Of a stretch of 64,000 bases of DNA, positions 19,630-31,557 are shown piece by piece. Position 1 is the first letter of the stretch; the number at the start of each line of letters is the position of its first letter. The DNA is from Variovorax sp. TBS-050B. GTDB lineage: Bacteria > Pseudomonadota > Gammaproteobacteria > Burkholderiales > Burkholderiaceae_C. The notes under the pieces are model-generated. The model worked only from the letters and a program-made list of their open reading frames with translations. It was not told the origin of the DNA and searched no databases. Location of the stretch: assembly GCF_029893635.1 (NCBI RefSeq), contig NZ_JARXYR010000002.1:496001-560000 (forward strand), written 5' to 3'. The translations under genes and the position numbers were made by a program.

Positions 19630-20343
19630 CTACTTCGGTGCGAAGGCGTGGTTCAGTCCGACCACGATGCCGCGCACATGTCCGGGCCCGGTGCGCGACA
19701 GGCCGACGTCGATGCTGATCAGGGGCGTGAGGCTGAAGCGGCCGCCGATGCGCGTGGTCCAGAAGCCGGAGGCGCGGCTGCGCTCCGCGATCAGCGATAG
19801 CTTCTCGTCGATCGCCCATTCGGCCGCCGCGCCGCCGCGCGGCGTGCGCGCCCCGCTGCCGGTGGCCCAGTCGGCCCCGAGGTTGGCATGCAGCTGCAGG
19901 CGGTCCGACGGACGCCAGGTCAGCGGCAGCACGAGCTGCCCGCCGGCGCGTCCGCCGCGCGTGGCATCGAAGACGGCGCCGACCGACAGCGCCGCGGCGA
20001 ACGGCGCATCGGAGGCGGTCCCGTAGAAATTCCACTTGAGCTGCGGCCCCACGGCGACCGTCCGCTCGCCCTGTACCGAGAGCCGGTCGATGTTCAGGCC
20101 CAGCTCGAACGGCCCCACGCGGCAGGCCGGCCCGAGGTGCACGACGTTCACCGGCTCGGCGCCGGTGCGGCCCCACCAGGCCTCGTACTGGCACTGGCCC
20201 GGCTCGAGCGTGCCCGCATCGTCGACGTCGAAATGGCCCGCGGCCTGGGCGCCGGCATGGGCGAGGAGGCAGGCCGCCGCCAGGCAGCGCGCGCGGCCTG
20301 CGGTTCTGCTGAGGATCGTTCTTCTGTTGTTCATGGCTTGCAT
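19630..20343 (-). CDS. Secreted/outer-membrane hypothetical protein
   Basis: A 237-residue protein with a signal peptide ('CLAAACLLAHAGAQAAG'). The remainder is rich in alternating hydrophobic/polar stretches ('LSVGAVFDATRGGRAGGQLVLPLTW', 'RIGGRFSLTPLISIDVGLS'), as in outer-membrane beta-barrels, and it ends 'NHAFAPK'. I do not recognise a named family. A second Met at residue 4 is an equally good start. It lies downstream of nothing obviously linked; the response-regulator gene ends 40 bases before its start on the same strand, so read-through is possible. Confidence 0.6.
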   Translation of the reverse strand: MQAMNNRRTILSRTAGRARCLAAACLLAHAGAQAAGHFDVDDAGTLEPGQCQYEAWWGRTGAEPVNVVHLGPACRVGPFELGLNIDRLSVQGERTVAVGPQLKWNFYGTASDAPFAAALSVGAVFDATRGGRAGGQLVLPLTWRPSDRLQLHANLGADWATGSGARTPRGGAAAEWAIDEKLSLIAERSRASGFWTTRIGGRFSLTPLISIDVGLSRTGPGHVRGIVVGLNHAFAPK

Positions 20344-20383: not shown

Positions 20384-21373
20384 TCAGATTTCGAACTGCG
20401 GCTGCAGCTCGCGGATGCGCTTGATCGCCACGCCCGCGGCGGCCGTGCGGGTCTCGACGCCGAGCTTCACGTACACCCGCTCCAGGTGCTTCTTGGCGGT
20501 GGCGGGGCTGCTGCCGAGGATCTCGCCGATGTCCTTGTTGGTCTTGCCCTTCACCACCCAGTAGAGCACCTGGGCCTCGCGCGCCGTGAGCTTGAGGCTC
20601 AGGCTCATCGCCTCGATCACCGCGGTGTCGGAGGTCTCGCGCATCACGATCATCCATTCGTCGCCGCCGTCGTCCTCGCCCGTCTGCCGGTGCAGCCGAA
20701 GGCTCAGGCTGCCCGCGCCGCGCGTGATGACGAGCGGCGGCGGCTCGGTGCCCTGCTGCCGCGCCTCGGGCGCATGGCGCCGCAGCCATTCGAGCACCAC
20801 CGCGGGCGTCTCGGGCGCGCGGGTGTCGCAATGGCGCTCGAGCAGCTCGCGCGCCAGCGCGGTCTGCCAGATCAGACGGCCTTCCGGCAGCCGCACCGTG
20901 AAGCTCGCATAGCCGAAGGCATCGAGCGCATTGCGCGCCTGGCCGGCCTGCCGCGCGGCCTGCCGTGCACGCCGGGCGCCCTGCAGGTGCACGTTCATGC
21001 GCGCCAGCACTTCCTGCGGCTTGATCGGCTTGGTGACGTAGTCCACGCCGCCCGCTTCGAGCGCCGCGACCAGGTGCTCGGTCTCGGTGAGGCCGGTCAT
21101 GAACACGATCGGGATGTGCGCGGTCGCGGCATCGGCCTTGAGCCGGCGTGCGACCTCGAAGCCGTCGATGCCCGGCATCATCGCGTCGAGCAGCACGATG
21201 TCGGGACGCGCCTGCGCGGCGCGCTGCAGCGCCTGCTCGCCGTTGGTGGCCACCAGCACGGTATAGCCCGATTCGTCGAGCGCATCGTGCAGCACCGCGA
21301 GGTTGTCCGGCACGTCGTCGACGATCAGCACCAGGTCGGTGCCGCCCGCGATGCTTCTCGCGAGTTCGCTCAT
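20384..21373 (-). CDS. Two-component response regulator, REC plus LuxR-type HTH
   Basis: A 329-residue regulator. The receiver domain has the acidic pair D19/D20, phospho-acceptor D63 ('VLLDAMMPGIDG') and K115. The middle region (about 145-250) is a linker without an obvious family. The C-terminus is a LuxR/FixJ-type HTH ('LTAREAQVLYWVVKGKTNKDIGEILG'). Its start overlaps the stop of the giant kinase gene by four bases (ATGA), so the two are made together and it is almost certainly the kinase's output. The adjacent divergent urease operon is the most likely target, by position only. Confidence 0.92.
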   Translation of the reverse strand: MSELARSIAGGTDLVLIVDDVPDNLAVLHDALDESGYTVLVATNGEQALQRAAQARPDIVLLDAMMPGIDGFEVARRLKADAATAHIPIVFMTGLTETEHLVAALEAGGVDYVTKPIKPQEVLARMNVHLQGARRARQAARQAGQARNALDAFGYASFTVRLPEGRLIWQTALARELLERHCDTRAPETPAVVLEWLRRHAPEARQQGTEPPPLVITRGAGSLSLRLHRQTGEDDGGDEWMIVMRETSDTAVIEAMSLSLKLTAREAQVLYWVVKGKTNKDIGEILGSSPATAKKHLERVYVKLGVETRTAAAGVAIKRIRELQPQFEI

Positions 21374-24300
21374 GGCGCCACGCCCGGTGCGCAATCGATC
21401 TTCTCGAACGCGAACTGCCGCGCGAGCACGCGCTGCGCTTCGGTCCATGCGCGGCAGTCGGGCTCTTCGATGTCGATGGCGTCGAGTGCGTTCATGATGC
21501 CGCGGAAGTATCCCAGGCTCACGGCCTCGCCGAGCGCGCGCAGGCGCTCGGGCGAGGGCGGCCGCAGCGCAGGCGCGCTGGAAGCCGCCGGCGCCGGCTG
21601 CGCCGCGGCCTCGGTCCATTGCAGGCGGAGGCGGCGTTCGAGCCAGTCGAGCAGCTCGCTGTGGCGCACCGGCTTGACGAGGAAGTCCTCGGCCGCGATG
21701 CCGACGTCGTTCTCCAGCCCCTTGTCGAAGGCATTGGCCGAGACGATCGCCACCGGCGCATCGACCAGCCCCAGCCGGCGCGCGCGGCGGATCGTCTCCC
21801 AGCCGTCGATGCCCGGCATGGCCAGGTCGACCAGCATCGCGTCGGGCCGGTAGCCGGCCGCGATCAGGTCGAGCGCATCGTGCCCGCTGGCGGCGCTGCG
21901 CAGCTCGAAGCCGAGCGGTGCGAGCACATGGCCCAGCAGTTCGCGGTCGGCTTCCTCGTTGTCGACCACCAGCAGCCGCCGGCGCGGGCCCTCGTAGCCG
22001 CGCCGCGCACGCTGCGCCGGCGCCGGCCGGCCCGCGGCGGTACCGGCCGCGCCGTGCAGGCGCGGCAGGAACAGCCGCACGCAGAACAGCGAACCCTCGC
22101 CCGGCGTGCTGCGCACCTTCATCTCGCCGCCCATCAGGTCGGTCAGCATCTTCGCGATCGTGAGGCCCAGGCCCGCGCCGGGCGTGGAAGCCGCGGCCGC
22201 GCCGCCGCGCGCGAAGGGTTCGAAGATGCGCTCGATGTCCTCAGCCGTCATGCCGGGACCCGTGTCCTCGATCTCGACGGAGGCGAACTCGCGCGCATAC
22301 GAGAGCCGCAGCGTCACCTCGCCCGCCGCCGTGAACTTGATCGCGTTGCCCAGCAGGTTGATCAGGATCTGGCACACCCGCTTCTCGTCCGCGCGCACCA
22401 CCTCGGGCAGCGCGCCCGCGGCCTCGAAGCGAAAGCGCAGCCCCTTCTCGGCCGCCTGCAGTTCGAACATGTCGGCCAGCTCGCGCATGGTGTCGGCGAA
22501 GCGCATCGGCCGCGCATCGAGCGTGAGCTTGCCGGCCTCGATGTGGGCGATGGCCAGCGTGCCCTCGATCAGCGACAGCAGGTGCTCGCCGCCGCGTTTG
22601 ATCACCGCCACCGCCTGGCGCCGGTGCGGCGGCACCGAGGCGTCCTCGCCCATCAGCTGCGCATAGCCGAGGATGCTGTTGAGCGGCGTGCGCAGCTCGT
22701 GGCTGATCGCGCTGATGTAGCGGCTCTTGGCCTGGTTGGCCTGGTCGGCGGCGCGGCGGGCCTCGTCGGCCGCGAGCTTGGCCTGCTCGGCGACCTCGCG
22801 CGCCTCGTCGGCCGTCTGCTTGGCCGACTGCAGCGCCTGGTCGGTGGCGCGGTGCAGTTCGATCTCGCGCATCAGTAGGTGGGTCTGACGGTTCGATTCC
22901 TCCTGCGCCACCTTGCGGCTCTGGTGCGCGAGCACCAGCCACCAGGCCACCACGCCCGCGATCACGAGCAGCGCCATGTAGGCCTTGAGGAAGCCCGAAC
23001 GCAGCGAGGCCATCTGCGACACGCTGTCCTCCAGCGCGCGCAGCTCCTGCTGGTAGAGCACGCCGAACACCGCCGCGAGCACCGGCACCACGATCAGCAT
23101 CAGCAGCAGGAAGTGGCCGAGGCCCGTGTCGAGGTAGCGCCAGCTGATGCGCGGCAGCAGCCAGCGCAGCGCCGACGACCACTGCGCGGACAGCGAAGCG
23201 TGCGGCTTGCAGAGGTCGCCGCAGCGCGCGTCGAGCGTGCAGCACAGCGAGCAGATCGTGCCCTGGTAGGCCGGGCAGTGGGCCATGTCGGGGCCCTCGT
23301 ACTCGCGCTCGCAGATCACGCAGCGCTGCACCGCAAGGCGCCGGTAGCCGCCCTGGTCCGCCGCCCCGACGACGCGCGCCCAGCGCACCGCGCGCGCACC
23401 GCCGCCGGCCGCCTCGCGCGCCAGGTAGTACTTGCCGCCCGTGGCCCAGGCCAGCAGCGGCGACACCACCAGCGCCGTGCCGAGCGCGATCAGCGCCGAG
23501 AAGGCCTGCGCGAGCGGCCCGAACACGCCGAGGTGCGCGGTGATCGACAGCAGCGAGGCCAGCGCCATCGCGCCCACGCCCACCGGGTTGATGTCCCAGA
23601 GATGGGCGCGCTTGAACTCGATGCCCGGCGGCGAAAGGCCCAGCGGCTTGTTGATGACCAGATCGGCCACCACCGCCATCATCCAGGCGATGGCGATGTT
23701 GGCGAACAACCCGAGCACGTCGCCGAGCGCCTCGAACACGTTCATCTCCATCAGCATGAAGGCGATCAGCGCGTTGAACACCACCCACACCACCCGGCCC
23801 GGATGGCTGTGCGCCACGCGCGAGAAGAAGTTGCTCCACGCGAGCGAGCCCGCATAGGCGTTGGTCACGTTGATCTTGAGCTGCGAGATCACCACGAACA
23901 GCGCGGTCGCGGCCACCGCCCAGCCGTACTGCGGGAACACGTACTCGTAGGCGGCAAGGTACATCTGGTTCGGATCGACCGCGCGCTCCACCGGCACCAT
24001 GTGCGTGATCGCGAGGTAGGCCAGCAGCGCGCCGCCGAGCATCTTGAGCACGCCCAGCACCACCCAGCCCGGCCCGCCCGCCAGCACGCCGGCCCACCAG
24101 CGGCGCCGGTTCGCGGCCGTGCGCGCGGGCATGAAGCGCAGGTAGTCGGCCTGCTCGCCCATCTGCGTGATGAGCGCGATGCCGACCGTGAGCGCCGCGC
24201 CAAACAGGTGCAGATCGAAACCCTTGCCGCCCGATCGCGCGCCGTTGTAGTGCACGATGCCCGCGAACGCACCAGGATCGCGCACCAGCACGAAGACGAA

Positions 24301-24912
24301 GGGCACCACCAGCATCACCAGCCAGAGCGGCTGCGTCCACAGCTGCAGCCGGCTGATCGCGGAGACGCCGTGCGTGACGAGCGGAATCACCACCAGCGCG
24401 CAGACCAGGTAGCCCCACACGGGCGGCACGCCGAGCGCCAGCTCGAGCGCATAGGCCATCACCGCGGCCTCGAGCGCGAAGAAGATGAAGGTGAAGGAGG
24501 CGTAGATCAGCGAGGTCAGCGTCGAGCCGATGTAGCCGAAGCCCGCGCCGCGCGTGAGCAGGTCCATGTCGACGCCGTAGCGCGCGGCGTACACGCTGAT
24601 CGGCAGGCCCGCGAGGAAGATGATCAGCCCGGTGGCGACGATGGCCCAGAAGGCATTGGCGAAGCCGTACTGCACCAGCAGCGTCGCGCCCACGGCCTCG
24701 AGGATCAGGAACGAGGCCGCGCCGAAGGCCGTGTTGCCCACGCGCCATTCGGACCATTTGCGAAAGCGCTGCGGCGTGTAGCGCAGCGCGTAGTCCTCGA
24801 GCGTCTCGCTCGCGACCCAGCTGTTGTAGTCGCGCCGCACCTTGACGATGCGCTGCGGCGCTTCGGCGGTGGTGGCGGAGGTCTCGGCAGGGTTCACACC
24901 TTTTCGGTGCAT
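21370..24912 (-). CDS. NCS1 permease-fused hybrid sensor histidine kinase
   Basis: An 1180-residue receptor kinase. Residues about 25-495 look like a full 12-helix nucleobase:cation symporter-1 (NCS1) transporter ('[15 protein letters not shown]', '[12 protein letters not shown]', '[11 protein letters not shown]'). Residues 531-568 hold eight cysteines (531, 534, 546, 554, 557, 558, 564, 568), probably a metal site. Two more membrane segments (about 600-620, 643-662) and a coiled coil (670-730) lead into the kinase: H738 in 'SHELRTPLN', N box at 852-856 and D883. A C-terminal receiver has D984 and D1029, with K1080. The architecture recalls CbrA, which carries an SSS-type transporter. The response regulator overlaps it by four bases, and the urease operon is divergent 101 bases away. 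Ligand unknown; a purine, pyrimidine, allantoin or hydantoin is plausible from the NCS1 family. Confidence 0.93.
24895..24911. promoter_or_regulatory. NtrC-like dyad between the kinase gene and ureA
   Basis: CACACC-TTTTC-GGTGCA. The right half is the exact NtrC half-site GGTGCA, the left matches four of six positions of TGCACC, and the five-base spacing is that of the NtrC consensus. It lies about 35 bases upstream of the sigma-54 -24 box and overlaps the kinase start codon (24910-24912), so binding could both activate ureA and block the kinase gene. Inference from sequence only. Confidence 0.45.
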
Positions 24913-24945
24913 CTTTCATGCCATCCATACGCCGTTTGGCGGCGG

Positions 24946-24961
24946 CGGCACGACTGTTGCA
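24946..24961 (+). promoter_or_regulatory. Sigma-54 promoter of the urease operon
   Basis: CGGCACGACTGTTGCA matches the -24/-12 consensus TGGCACG-N4-TTGCA at every position but the first. The invariant GG (24947-24948) and GC (24959-24960) have the required spacing. Transcription would begin near 24972, about 42 bases before ureA. Sigma-54 with NtrC control of urease is known in other nitrogen-regulated proteobacteria. Confidence 0.72.
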
Positions 24962-25013
24962 AAGAAGCCGGCCTGCCCATAATGGCCGCCTTCCCGACAT
25001 CGATGCCGATCCC

Positions 25014-25316
25014 ATGGAACTGACCCCGCGCGAAAAAGACAAGCTGCTGATCTTCACCGCGGCGCTGCTGGCCGAACGCCGCAAGGCCCGCGGGCTCAAG
25101 CTCAACTACCCCGAGGCGGTCGCGCTGATCTCGGCCGCCGTGATGGAAGGCGCGCGCGACGGCAAGAGCGTGGCCGAGCTCATGAGCGAGGGCCGCGCGG
25201 TGCTCACGCGGGCCGACGTGATGGACGGCATCGCCGAGATGATCCCGGACATCCAGGTCGAGGCCACCTTTCCGGACGGCACCAAGCTGGTCACCGTCCA
25301 CCAGCCGATCGTCTGA
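25014..25316 (+). CDS. ureA: Urease subunit gamma UreA
   Basis: Smallest structural subunit (100 residues) of the nickel urease that splits urea into ammonia and carbamate. The start '[23 protein letters not shown]' is the family N-terminus, and the C-terminal '[17 protein letters not shown]' is conserved. A longer frame upstream is ruled out because it would overlap the sigma-54 promoter. It is the first gene of the operon. In related genomes ureD usually lies directly upstream; here that place is taken by the divergent kinase gene. Confidence 0.97.
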
Positions 25317-25346: not shown

Positions 25347-25949
25347 ATGCGCCATTCCGCTTTCAGGCCTGCCGCCGCCCTCCTTGCCCTGCTGCTGCCG
25401 CTCGCAGCCGCCGCCCACACGGGTGCGGACGGCGGCACACACCACGGCTTCGCCGCCGGCTTCATGCATCCGCTCACGGGCACCGACCACCTGGCCGCGA
25501 TGGTCGCGGTCGGCCTCTGGAGCGCGCTGGCCGCGCGCCGCGCCTGGCCCGACCTGCTGTGGGCGCCGCTGGCCTTCGCGGGCATGCTGCTCGCGGGCGC
25601 CCTGATGGGGCTGACGGGCGTCCAGCTGCCGGCGGTCGAGCCGATGATCGCCGCCTCGCTGCTCGTGCTCGGCCTGCTGGTCGCCGCGCGCATCCGGCTG
25701 CCGGCCGCCGCGGCGATGGCGCTGGTCGGCGTGTTCGCGGTCTTCCATGGCCTGGCGCACGGCCACGAACTCGCGGGCGGACACGGCGCCGCGCTCACGC
25801 TGGCGGGCATGGTGACGGCCACGCTCCTGCTGCATGGCGCGGGCATCGCGCTCGGCTGGGCGCTGCGCCATGCCAACGCCTGGCTGCCGCGCGTGGCCGG
25901 CGGCGCGGTGGTGGCGCTCGGCGCCGCACTGCTCGCGCAGGCCGCTTGA
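25347..25949 (+). CDS. hupE: HupE/UreJ-family nickel permease
   Basis: A 200-residue inner-membrane protein with a signal-like first segment, the histidine motif '[12 protein letters not shown]' and a second '[10 protein letters not shown]' motif, about six further hydrophobic segments and an Ala-rich end. HupE/UreJ proteins bring nickel (sometimes cobalt) into the cell for hydrogenase or urease. It sits between ureA and ureB, a common arrangement in Burkholderiales, which supports nickel supply to urease as its job. Confidence 0.93.
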
Positions 25950-25965
25950 AGAGGCCGCGACCATC

Positions 25966-26274
25966 ATGATCCCCGGCGAACTCCTGGTCGACGAAGGCGA
26001 GCACACGCTCAACCCCGGCCGCCGCACCCTCACGCTCGTGGTGCAGAACACCGCCGACCGGCCGATCCAGGTCGGCTCGCACTACCACTTCGCCGAGACC
26101 AACGGCGCGCTCGGCTTCGACCGCGAGGCCGCGCGCGGCATGCGGCTCCACATCGCCTCCGGCGCCGCGGTGCGCTTCGAGCCCGGCCAGCAGCGCACGG
26201 TCGAGCTGGTCGACTTCTCGGGCGATCGCATCGTCTACGGCTTTCGCGGCCTCGTTCAAGGGAAATTGGAATGA
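25966..26274 (+). CDS. ureB: Urease subunit beta UreB
   Basis: A 102-residue structural subunit of urease. '[21 protein letters not shown]' and '[15 protein letters not shown]' are family hallmarks, and the last residues '[19 protein letters not shown]' are typical. The ATG at 25966 follows the hupE stop by 16 bases; the longer frame overlapping hupE is not the gene. A 111-base repeat-containing gap separates it from ureC. Confidence 0.97.
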
Positions 26275-26385: not shown

Positions 26386-28104
<1,719 letters not shown>

Positions 28105-28111
28105 GCCCGCC

Positions 28112-28585
28112 GTGGAACTCCGGATCCGCCTGGACGCGCTCGAGGATCCGCGCATCGCGGCTTTCCTCGCTCAGCACTTGGCCGACATGCATCGGGTCTC
28201 GCCGCCTGAAAGCGTTTTCGCACTCGATCTGTCGGAACTGCGCCGTCCCGGGGTTCGATTCTGGTCCGGCTGGATCACAAGCGGCAGCGGCGAAGCGCTG
28301 GTGGCGATGGCAGCGCTGAAGCGGCTCGACGCTGCACATGCCGAACTGAAATCCATGCGGACGGCTGAATCGGTGCGGGGCCAGGGCTTTGCCCAACGGA
28401 TGCTCGCTCACGTGCTCGATGAGGCACGTGCTCAAGGGTTCGAACGCTTGAGCCTGGAAACGGGCAACCAGCTCTTCTTCGCGCCAGCACGGGGGCTGTA
28501 CGCAAAACACGGATTCGAACCCTGCGGGCCGTTTGGCGACTATGGACCCGATCCCACCAGCTGCTTCATGACGCGGCTGCTCTGA
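28112..28585 (+). CDS. GNAT-family N-acetyltransferase
   Basis: A 157-residue acetyltransferase with the GNAT core: the acetyl-CoA motif A is 'SVRGQGFAQRMLAHVL' and motif B is 'ARGLYAKHGFEPCGPFGDYG'. The closest general match is the YsnE/PhnO-like group of small-molecule acetyltransferases, and no substrate can be named. It starts with GTG seven bases after the ureC stop and so belongs to the urease transcript. It is an accessory cargo gene at the point where the minus-strand toxin-antitoxin pair begins. Confidence 0.85.
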   Translation: MELRIRLDALEDPRIAAFLAQHLADMHRVSPPESVFALDLSELRRPGVRFWSGWITSGSGEALVAMAALKRLDAAHAELKSMRTAESVRGQGFAQRMLAHVLDEARAQGFERLSLETGNQLFFAPARGLYAKHGFEPCGPFGDYGPDPTSCFMTRLL

Positions 28586-28997: not shown

Positions 28998-29221
28998 TTC
29001 GCCAGTTCTCGCAGCACGTTGCGCCGCTTCTTCATCACACGACGTGCTGCTTCCATCTGGCGCGCAAAATCCGCGTCGTAGGGCGAGAGCAAGTAGCCGC
29101 CCGAAGCGGCCTCCGACAGGTAGACGGTGTCGCCCTTGCCGAGGTTCATCTTCGCCAGCATCTCCTTGGGCAGGATGACGCCCACCGAGTTGCCGATTTG
29201 GGTCAGTTTGAGCGCGGACAT
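28994..29221 (-). CDS. AbrB/MazE-type antitoxin
   Basis: A 75-residue protein with an N-terminal swapped-hairpin SpoVT/AbrB DNA-binding domain ('ALKLTQIGNSVGVILPKEML') and a charged C-terminal tail that should bind the toxin. It precedes doc with a four-base overlap. Such antitoxins bind their own operator; a perfect palindrome lies 19 bases upstream of its start. Confidence 0.9.
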   Translation of the reverse strand: MSALKLTQIGNSVGVILPKEMLAKMNLGKGDTVYLSEAASGGYLLSPYDADFARQMEAARRVMKKRRNVLRELAK

Positions 29222-29240
29222 GCTTCAGTTCTGCACAAGT

Positions 29241-29256
29241 TATAACGGACGTTATA
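29241..29256. promoter_or_regulatory. Palindromic operator upstream of the toxin-antitoxin pair and ureE
   Basis: TATAACG-GA-CGTTATA is a perfect 7-2-7 inverted repeat in an AT-rich patch between the divergent antitoxin gene and ureE. It fits an autoregulatory site for the AbrB-type antitoxin and contains TATAAC/TATATT stretches usable as -10 boxes on either strand. Repression here could also touch a ureE promoter. Confidence 0.55.
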
Positions 29257-29285
29257 TTAGCCAAACCATCGAAGTTCACAAGCCC

Positions 29286-29888
29286 ATGCTCACCGCCAAC
29301 AAACTCATGCCCCAGGGCCGCGGCCTCGCGCCCGTGCTGCTCAAGCGCGCGGCCACCATCGAACTCGACTGGGACGTCCGCCAGAAGAGCCGCTTCGACG
29401 CCACCGATTCGCAGGGTCGCCGCATCGGCGTGTTCCTGCCGCGCGGCACCGCCGTGCGTGGCGGGGACGTGCTGGTGGCGGAGGACGGTTCGCTGGTCCG
29501 CGTGATCGCGGCGCCGCAGCCGGTGCTGCGCATCACGCACTGCAGCGCGCACGGTACGCCGTTCGATCTGACGCGTGCGGCCTATCACCTGGGCAATCGG
29601 CATGTGCCGATCGAGCTCAAGCCCGACCACCTCAAGATCGAACCCGACCATGTGCTTGCGGACATGCTGCGTTCGATGCACCTGATCGTGGCGGCGGTGG
29701 AAGAGCCCTTCGAGCCCGAGGGCGGCGCGTATGGATCGCATGCGCATTCCCACGGCCATGGACATGACCACGCGCATGACCATGACCACGGCCACTCCCA
29801 TGGGAGCGGTTCGAAGCCGCTGGTGCTTGCGCCGGAACTGCTCGATGCGCACGACCACTCGCATGGGCATCACGATCATTCGCATTGA
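29286..29888 (+). CDS. ureE: Urease nickel metallochaperone UreE
   Basis: Cytoplasmic dimeric nickel chaperone (200 residues) that passes Ni(II) to the UreG-UreF-UreD assembly complex. The N-terminal peptide-binding domain and the metal-binding domain ('CSAHGTPFDLTRAAYHLGNRHVPIEL') are typical. The C-terminus has two very histidine-rich stretches (about 149-170 and 187-200), which can store several nickel ions. The start 'MLTANKLMPQGRG' lies 64 bases from the divergent antitoxin gene. It therefore probably has its own promoter in addition to any read-through from ureC. Confidence 0.95.
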   Translation: MLTANKLMPQGRGLAPVLLKRAATIELDWDVRQKSRFDATDSQGRRIGVFLPRGTAVRGGDVLVAEDGSLVRVIAAPQPVLRITHCSAHGTPFDLTRAAYHLGNRHVPIELKPDHLKIEPDHVLADMLRSMHLIVAAVEEPFEPEGGAYGSHAHSHGHGHDHAHDHDHGHSHGSGSKPLVLAPELLDAHDHSHGHHDHSH

Positions 29889-30199: not shown

Positions 30200-30889
30200 A
30201 TGCAAGCCCCCCCAACCGCCTCCCCAGCCTCGAGCCTCCTGCAGCTCATCTGGCTAGCCTCCCCCGCCCTGCCGGTCGGCGGCTTCTCGTACTCCGAAGG
30301 CATCGAGGCTGCGGTCGAATGGGCCGGCATCGACACCGAACCGAAGGCTGCTGAGTGGCTGTCCGACCAGTTGCATCTGAGCTTCGCGCGCGGCGATCTT
30401 GCGCTCGTCGCACAGGCCATCGCCGCCTGGCGTGCGAACGATGCGCCGCGCATCCGCACGCTCAACGACTGGGTGCTGCACACGCGCGAATCGGCCGAGT
30501 TCTTCCTGCAGACCGAGCAGATGGGCCGCTCCTTCGTCGAATGGCTCAAGCTGCACCATGCCGACACCGCCGAAGTGTTCGCGGACCTGCCCCCCAGCTA
30601 CCCCGTGGCCTTCGCCTTCGCGGTCAGCCGCACCACCGCCTCGGTGCACGACGGCTGCCTCGCCTTCGCCTTCGGCTGGGCCGAGAACATGGTCGCTGCC
30701 GCCGTCAAGGCCGTGCCGCTCGGCCAGAGCGCGGGCCAGCGCATTCTCGGCCGGCTCGCGCAGGAGATGCCCGCGGCCGTGGCGCGCGCCATGGCGCTGG
30801 CCGACGACGAGCGCCAGGCTTTCGCGCCGCTGCTCGCCGTGCTCTCGGCGCGCCACGAAACACAGTATTCCCGCCTCTTTCGAAGCTGA
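30200..30889 (+). CDS. ureF: Urease accessory protein UreF
   Basis: All-helical accessory protein (229 residues) that, with UreD and UreG, forms the complex loading nickel into apo-urease and gating GTP use by UreG. Family signatures are '[19 protein letters not shown]' near the N-terminus and '[13 protein letters not shown]' at the C-terminus. It follows the inverted-repeat element and precedes ureG by 17 bases, so ureF-ureG are co-transcribed. Confidence 0.96.
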
Positions 30890-30906
30890 ACCGGACCCAT
30901 CGAACC

Positions 30907-31557
30907 ATGACCTCCGCCCTGCACCACATTCCCCGCCGCACCAAGAAACTGCCGCCGCTGCGCGTGGGCATCGGCGGCCCCGTCGGCTCCGGCAAGACCA
31001 CGCTGCTCGAGATGCTCTGCAAGGCGATGCGCGACAAGTACGACCTCGTCGCCATCACCAACGACATCTACACCAAGGAAGACCAGCGCCTGCTCACCGT
31101 GGCCGGCGCGCTGCCCGCCGAGCGCATCATGGGCGTGGAGACCGGCGGCTGCCCGCACACCGCGATCCGCGAGGACGCCTCGATCAACCTCGAAGCCATC
31201 GACCGCATGCTCGAGGACTTTCCCGATGCCGACGTGGTGTTCGTCGAATCGGGCGGCGACAACCTCGCCGCCACCTTCAGTCCCGAACTGTCGGACCTCA
31301 CGATCTACGTGATCGACGTCGCGGCCGGCGAGAAGATTCCGCGCAAGGGCGGCCCGGGCATCACCAAGAGCGACCTCTTCGTGATCAACAAGACCGACCT
31401 CGCGCCGCACGTCGGCGCGAACCTCGACGTGATGGAGCAGGACACGCGGCGCATGCGCCGCGACCGGCCCTACGTGATGACCAACCTCAAGACCCACGCG
31501 GGCGTGGCCGAGGTGGTGGCGTTCATCGAGAAACGCGGCATGCTCGCCGCAGCATGA
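30907..31557 (+). CDS. ureG: Urease accessory GTPase UreG
   Basis: SIMIBI-class GTPase (216 residues) that binds nickel and supplies GTP hydrolysis for urease maturation. The P-loop is GPVGSGKT at 24-31, the metal-binding CPH motif is in '[15 protein letters not shown]', and the G4-type motif is 'INKTDLAP'. It is the last gene of the urease cluster; the next gene is a convergent LysR regulator 55 bases away, without a clear terminator between. Confidence 0.97.

Follow-up and report, generated by a model that had tools for sequence, protein, structure and literature searches.

The closest described counterparts of the system reported here are histidine kinases that carry a transporter domain; urease and urea uptake themselves are usually framed by NtrC/Nac, UreR, NikR or acid control. 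CbrA of the CbrA/CbrB system of Pseudomonas is a transceptor kinase of the SLC5-STAC-PAS type, in which the transporter domain is coupled to the kinase and which is tied to histidine, as given in the excerpted part of PMC13022988. In CrbS/CrbR of Vibrio and Pseudomonas, a transporter-like domain (SLC5 with STAC) likewise sits on a hybrid kinase, an imperfect palindrome precedes the acetate utilisation genes, and the regulator is placed in the OmpR/LuxR family (excerpt of PMC5715377). The ammonium sensor kinase of Kuenenia fuses a nitrogen-compound transporter domain of the Amt type to a histidine kinase (excerpt of PMC5764959). Here, a similar layout is described for a stretch of 64,000 nucleotides from Variovorax sp. 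TBS-050B (hereafter the window; source genome 5.5 Mb, two contigs), in which a hybrid kinase with a permease-like sensor and a LuxR-type regulator are encoded back to back with a urease operon. The pair probably forms a two-component transceptor system that responds to urea or a short-chain amide and activates ureA and urtABCDE.

By analogy, the physiology of such a system would be like that of the fmd cluster of Methylophilus methylotrophus, for which the excerpted passages of PMC10781810 name a putative positive regulator and, unlike the window, no transporter-kinase. LuxR-family two-component genes and a hybrid kinase have been reported beside a urtABCDE operon, with no function given in the excerpt of PMC13296017. 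In the open-access literature searched, no title or abstract describes a sensor kinase of the NCS1 type or one that serves urea or formamide.

Architecture of the kinase and its sensor domain

The kinase and the regulator are encoded on the minus strand, divergent from ureA:

21370..24912, minus strand: hybrid sensor kinase with permease-like sensor, 1180 amino acids (aa) (open reading frame (ORF), Pfam and homologues)
23398..24855, minus strand: permease-like domain, residues ~20-505, putative remote NCS1 relative (hhalign; no Pfam match)
23209..23322, minus strand: cysteine cluster, residues 531-568, shared with free-standing permeases (alignment)
22531..22731, minus strand: HisKA, kinase residues 728-794 (Pfam)
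22066..22389, minus strand: HATPase_c, kinase residues 842-949 (Pfam)
21643..21972, minus strand: kinase receiver (Response_reg), residues 981-1090 (Pfam)
20384..21373, minus strand: response regulator, 329 aa, Response_reg 15-126 and GerE 262-315 (LuxR-type helix-turn-helix), recognition helix SPATAKKH (Pfam)
24928..24943, no strand assigned: predicted regulator site TACGCCGTTTGGCGGC in the kinase/ureA intergenic region, a degenerate form of TACGYC-N4-GRCGTA with 2 mismatches (matrix score)
25014..25316, plus strand: ureA, urease gamma subunit (Urease_gamma), divergent (Pfam)

The kinase and regulator ORFs share 4 bases (21370-21373), and ureA lies 101 bp from the kinase start codon on the opposite strand. 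These coordinates bear out the original prediction, an earlier reading of the window, that a LuxR-type regulator overlaps the kinase by four bases and that both are divergent from ureA. CbrB, in contrast, is said to be NtrC-type; CrbR is reportedly LuxR-type, and MxtR/ErdR is reportedly a further name for that system. HisKA, HATPase_c and the receiver all score above the Pfam cut-off, the phosphorylation sites are intact as judged by eye (SHELRTPLN and DLAMPGIDG), and C531, C534, C554 and C557 are invariant across 60 aligned relatives. The predicted hybrid kinase and its cysteine cluster are thus confirmed by Pfam and by the 60-row alignment, which has 64 invariant columns, 58 of them in the permease part. 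The closest named relatives of the kinase in homologue searches belong to Variovorax.

The sensor had been taken for an entire NCS1-type permease, with Transp_cyt_pur expected beside the kinase domains. Pfam recovers HisKA, HATPase_c and Response_reg; residues 1-506 have no Pfam match even at E 10, the PF02133 (Transp_cyt_pur) model included, and a free-standing relative of the sensor is also unmatched by that model. A sensor profile built from 60 sequences found no transporter of any kind among PDB sequences; in this the sensor differs from the Amt-type domain of the Kuenenia kinase. By hhalign, the sensor aligns over 398 columns with ten proteins that were taken from related genomes at PF02133-positive sites (probability 97.6, E 4.6e-12). 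Because Pfam and PDB are silent and yet this comparison aligns 398 columns, the permease-like domain is, by profile similarity, a remote branch of the NCS1 superfamily; of the earlier claim, the kinship stands as a remote one and the recognition by Pfam does not. A 552-aa open frame is 30% identical to the sensor, and its 497-aa ORF matches PF02133 at 36 bits. Some homologues are labelled 'purine-cytosine permease-like' in their source records.

An SLC5/SSS symporter domain was rejected for the sensor, since residues 1-506 are unmatched in Pfam and the profile comparison leads to NCS1. Between transporter and kinase, Pfam gives no STAC domain but only HisKA, HATPase_c and Response_reg, the presence of a STAC model in that Pfam copy being unchecked. 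The position of STAC is taken by the cysteine cluster and two hydrophobic stretches (~601-620 and ~643-662), which, together with a helical linker, were assigned by eye only. Where CrbS/CrbR combines SLC5 and STAC with acetate genes, the window thus has a remote NCS1 domain and a cysteine cluster with urea/amide genes; a palindrome lies upstream of the utilisation genes in both, in the window as a predicted regulator site. The earlier comparison with the logic of CbrA-CbrB, using another transporter family, agrees with this layout, which would work like CbrA and CrbS with a domain other than SLC5.

Gene neighbourhood of homologous kinases

Near relatives were taken as the best 80 of 579 relatives in species-representative genomes. 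Among these 80 loci, 72 contain ureA (L048 has no more than a piece of it, at the distal end of its stretch), and in 62 it is divergent and <500 bp from the kinase; five of the eight loci without ureA begin within 250 bp of the stretch end. The original prediction depended on urease genes adjoining the homologues, and these counts support its link to urease; its transceptor-like architecture and coupled regulator are supported as well. Urea uptake genes are also present: by reading of the sequences, cluster c10 (19 loci) is urtA-like and cluster c17 (14 loci) urtB-like. In L038 and L046 the regulator is followed by urtA-, urtB- and urtC-like ORFs, and in L055 urtA- and urtB-like ORFs diverge from an additional kinase-regulator pair.

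Genomes of the class, the order and the phylum were searched with sensor residues 1-680 at E 1e-30, and matches were found in 16 of 274, 50 of 300 and 52 of 398 genomes, respectively; of the 50 positive order genomes, G530 has a free-standing permease only and G435 a fragment. From these, 100 stretches were taken and 12 hits left out (G038, G344, G354, G363, G387, G389, G397, G435, G450, G495, G507, G554). Gene classes were assigned by tblastn thresholds and by ORF clusters of our own naming, representatives of which were checked against Pfam. Of the 100 stretches, 82 hold urease, Urt-type ABC transporter or formamidase/amidase genes (urease 25, canonical urtA 17, urtA' 50, fmdA 54, amidase 28), urtA' being ~40% identical to canonical urtA. 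Within the order, urease is present in 48/50 sensor-positive versus 72/250 sensor-negative genomes (Fisher p 5e-20), and FmdA above 500 bits in 33/50 versus 6/250 (Fisher p 2e-25), both tests ignoring relatedness. On a quick maximum-likelihood tree built from the permease part, with labels on 86 of the 102 rows and mixed loci scored as fmd, the context switches at least five times between fmd-type and ure/urt-type. Beyond near relatives, the recurrent partners are therefore urea/amide uptake and breakdown genes, which speaks against a urea precursor (purine, pyrimidine, allantoin or hydantoin) as originally predicted; the sensor more likely responds to urea as such or to a short-chain amide.

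On a plasmid of Methylosinus trichosporium OB3b, the pair lies beside ureCBA, ureD and urtEDCBA; in Mitsuaria, ureA is divergent from it; and on pBVIE02 of Burkholderia vietnamiensis G4, its neighbours are an amide ABC operon, formamidase and FmdB. On a Klebsiella plasmid (L294), the homologue adjoins ABC genes and the gene for an AmiF-type amidase, with a heat-resistance locus (clpK/hsp20) close by, and on Sinorhizobium pSymB the nearest such neighbour is urtA, ~8 kb off. Plasmid records with a homologue number 516, of which 340 are from Klebsiella; some call it ArcB, response regulator or ATP-binding protein.

Two variants of the kinase were seen. Shorter kinases (885-894 aa) in L224 and L254 are followed by another signalling ORF, in L254 a receiver with a second kinase core, and by a formamidase-cluster ORF; this is a different wiring of the same sensor. 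A deep branch (L185, L186, L194, L195) has longer kinases (ORFs of 1223-1415 aa) with the same sensor, and in these four stretches neither urea/amide genes nor a regulator of this kind were found.

Sensor relatives without a kinase are the best clue to the ligand. In an Acidihalobacter genome, the gene for a 559-aa permease, which is 52-55% identical to the sensor domain and has the same cysteine cluster, diverges from a kinase-regulator pair. Formamidase, a CN-hydrolase amidase and, between them, a zinc-ribbon ORF lie downstream of this permease, which occupies the place that the ABC transporter holds elsewhere. The order on Methylovirgula plasmid pHY1 is fmdB-fmdA / kinase-regulator-permease / amidase, and a third free-standing permease (L216) lies on an 8-kb contig with informative neighbours absent. 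Formamidase genes are thus located by two of the three free-standing relatives whose surroundings were seen. The cysteine cluster is kept in all ten free-standing permeases aligned. From their neighbours, the closest non-kinase relatives of the sensor look like amide carriers.

When a search was limited to proteins of comparable length, 5988 of 8000 scored candidates were relatives. The 120 matches listed are 498-571 aa long; a few of them are named as kinases or sensors and could be fragments, and precomputed Pfam domains are present in 0/120 among the matches listed. Permeases of ~550 aa (L174:11267-12946; P0122-P0241) form a large family, several members of which are from the acidophiles Acidithiobacillus, Acidiphilium and Leptospirillum.

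A second kinase with this sensor, the only other one in the source genome, is 53% identical over residues 8-1157; the next match is 33% identical and covers the kinase part only. This paralogue has its own LuxR-type regulator and is back to back with urtA'-urtB'-urtC'-urtD' (NCBIfam), downstream of which are a urtE'-like ORF, formamidase (fmdA) and a zinc-ribbon-type ORF. The urtA' gene of the paralogue (G000:C2:3643182-3644262, L089) is spread over two frames, either by a real split or by a sequencing error.

In 19 further neighbour clusters examined with Pfam, the only nucleoside-type gene was a PNP_UDP_1 phosphorylase (d29) in five loci, several clusters being unidentified and no search being aimed at nucleobase genes. 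The five loci (L221, L227, L232, L235, L257) belong to one clade of the tree, in which IF-2B-type and flavin monooxygenase-like ORFs (d24, d30) are also found nearby.

Predicted regulator site and promoters of urtA

Where a kinase and a urtA-like gene (mostly urtA') are transcribed divergently, 41 non-redundant regions upstream of the kinase were compared, and 19 of them contain the palindrome TACGT-N6-ACGTA. In the shuffled control (8 sets), the commonest palindrome reaches only 2-4 regions, and direct-repeat motifs in the upstream regions were not above shuffles. A symmetric 18-bp matrix was derived from 46 such regions, mainly formamidase loci, and marks 42 of these 46, its own training data. 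The training regions included 2 canonical-urtA, 5 own-family and 1 unlabelled-context loci; a retrained matrix was based on the 38 regions left after their removal. When the first matrix was permuted symmetrically 100 times, at most 3 of 39 urtA regions (mean 0.45) and at most 3 of the 46 training regions were marked, whereas the real matrix marks 29/39 in the same run with shuffles drawn anew. The palindrome is the predicted site of the regulator.

Both matrices mark 27 of 63 kinase/ureA intergenic regions of near relatives, including that of the window. The ureA site of the window scores 8.5 versus a shuffled 99% level of 4.2 (retrained: 8.8 versus 5.6), below the 9.0 level of 400-bp regions. 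Exact matches to TACGYCNNNNGRCGTA are found at two places in the genome. One perfect palindrome precedes the canonical urtA, ~90 bp from its start codon and at a distance of 226 kb from the kinase; the other, at C2:1067003 by ORFs that read as pantothenate-kinase-like and LysM-like, was taken as chance.

For the promoters of urtA, 60 genomes of the family, one per genus, were compared; a strong match to urtA was found in 40 of these and a match to the sensor in 36, and for 41 urtA matches 39 upstream regions were examined, that of the source genome included. A palindrome score above the shuffled 99% level is seen in 26/29 kinase-positive versus 2/10 kinase-negative regions (Fisher one-sided p 1e-4), ~70-210 bp before urtA, and the retrained matrix gives identical counts. 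A sigma-54 -24/-12 site with at most 1 mismatch is present in 8/10 kinase-negative regions, in 1/29 kinase-positive regions and in 24/1950 shuffled control sequences. In G983, the sole kinase-positive genome with such a site, the kinase gene is split into two separate pieces; the other two kinase-positive regions without a strong palindrome are those of G947 (weak, 7.0) and of the second urtA of G970 (71% identical). NtrC-like sites upstream of urtA were limited to a single loose match (G956). Judged from these sequences, the presence of the kinase predicts the type of urtA promoter in the family genomes sampled, and the system appears to take the place of sigma-54/NtrC-type control of urtA in this family. 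The architecture, the gene neighbourhood, the motif distribution and this sigma-54-like alternative are direct observations.

The regulators differ along with the sites. Of 44 loci at which a single regulator helix and a single kinase go with a site, 38 are cleanly of the T..A or C..G type. Where residue 6 of the recognition helix is N, the site is TACGT..ACGTA in 21/24; where it is D, T or K, the site is TACGC..GCGTA in 14/14, which is suggestive of helix residue and site changing together. The window regulator has K (SPATAKKH) and C..G-type sites at ureA and urtA, and the regulator of the paralogue has N (SPRTVNKH) and a T..A site before urtA'. The pairing of the K helix with C..G sites and of the N helix with T..A sites suggests two insulated circuits in one genome.

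The remaining urease operon genes downstream of ureA are as follows:

25347..25949, plus strand: HupE/UreJ family protein (Pfam)
25966..26274, plus strand: ureB, urease beta subunit (start read from the sequence; cluster named by us)
26386..28104, plus strand: ureC, urease alpha subunit (PF00449 at G000:C2:522392-522757)
28112..28585, plus strand: GNAT acetyltransferase, within the urease operon between ureC and ureE (cluster c19, 11 members)
29127..29888, plus strand: ureE
30355..31557, plus strand: ORF with ureG (CobW/HypB/UreG domain), true start probably downstream

One distant UreD query gave no match to ureD in the window. A 237-aa ORF with a signal-like N-terminus (19630-20343, minus strand) follows the regulator gene at a distance of 41 bp and is read in the same direction. 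It matches no Pfam family, and its cluster c9 is found in 22 of 81 sequences examined, the window counted. By analogy with the fmd cluster of M. methylotrophus, which includes a porin (excerpt of PMC10781810), it could be an outer-membrane partner.

Proposed mechanism and alternative explanations

In the proposed mechanism, the permease-like domain would bind urea in an alternating-access carrier fold, and its sister copy would bind a short-chain amide, e.g. formamide. Binding or transport would cause a conformational change that is relayed via the cysteine cluster, the two transmembrane helices and the helical linker to the HisKA/HATPase core, and phosphate would pass to the LuxR-type regulator. 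The regulator would then bind TACGCC-N4-GGCGTA and activate ureA, the distant urtABCDE genes and perhaps the kinase gene, while the paralogous pair would bind TACGTC-N4-GACGTA and run urtA'B'C'D'E'-fmdA-fmdB. The ligand, the direction of activation, the phosphotransfer and any transport by the domain are steps that we infer.

A number of observations weigh against this mechanism. None of the urea/amide neighbours is found in 18 of the 100 stretches; these include the free-standing permease L216, the distant NCS1 protein L234, five stretches shortened to 4.8-12.8 kb by contig ends (L180, L201, L255, L257, L267), three from genomes with urease elsewhere (L192, L199, L263) and five of the deep branch in which a regulator of this kind was not found (L177, L185, L186, L194, L195). 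A site above the 99% level is missing from 36/63 kinase/ureA intergenic regions, and the ureA site of the window itself is degenerate. By our estimate, ~1.5 perfect matches are expected in the genome by chance, and the second perfect palindrome has no evident link to the system. With up to 2 mismatches, the pattern occurs at 292 places versus 1228 for the pattern read backwards, and the loose pattern is therefore not enriched genome-wide. In the promoter comparison, two kinase-negative urtA genes were left out (G955, cut by a contig end; G972, match from residue 75), two kinase-negative genomes have the palindrome (G975, assembly 74% complete; G962, 340 contigs, 99% complete), and the kinase-negative genomes with sigma-54 sites may represent few lineages. 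The covariation count sets aside 6/44 loci with mixed sites, and in a looser count 2/11 D-type helices have T..A sites. Independent tree contrasts number only 2-3, in the right direction with a median sign-test p of 0.5, and the covariation is therefore suggestive.

The remote NCS1 kinship, the PF02133 description, which lists cytosine/purines, uracil, thiamine and allantoin, and the phosphorylase-family gene in 5 loci would fit a sensor that takes up or detects a precursor of urea (purine, pyrimidine, allantoin, hydantoin) and adjusts urease accordingly. We consider this very unlikely, as the homologues adjoin urt, fmdA, fmdB, amidase and urease genes, formamide breakdown involves no nucleobase step, and the 5 phosphorylase loci are part of one clade and also show a urtA'-fmdA operon or a contig-end cut. 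Urease and formamidase both release ammonia, and the kinase might sense this common product, or nitrogen status, instead of the substrates. The lack of a sigma-54-like urtA promoter where the system is present would agree with this, as would the repression of the M. methylotrophus fmd cluster by high ammonia (excerpt of PMC10781810). The replacement of the ABC transporter in an fmdA operon by a free-standing sensor relative, however, indicates substrate handling, and sensing of ammonia is an unlikely explanation, if less so than the precursor. Least likely of the three is a cysteine cluster that senses a metal (nickel for urease, zinc) or redox state, with the permease domain as a mere membrane anchor. 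The cysteines are conserved and urease needs nickel, but the cluster is also kept in kinase-less free-standing permeases and in formamidase-linked kinases, and the permease part contains 58 of the 64 invariant columns.

Our preferred reading remains a transceptor for urea or a short-chain amide. We give about even chances to its extension to a Pseudomonadota-wide group of transceptor kinases. Their NCS1-derived urea/amide sensor would have come from free-standing amide permeases or be their sister, with repeated switching between formamide and urea; sigma-54/NtrC control of urea uptake would have been replaced in the family, and co-changed helices and palindromes would separate the branches. 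The sensor is common, being found in 50/300 order and 52/398 phylum genomes sampled and in 516 plasmid records. If the reading is true, one kind of predicted site at three promoters in one genome would allow a cheap test, the swap of sigma-54-type for two-component control would be documented across related genomes, and the kinase would be a membrane urea sensor and represent a second lineage of transceptor kinases besides SLC5-STAC.

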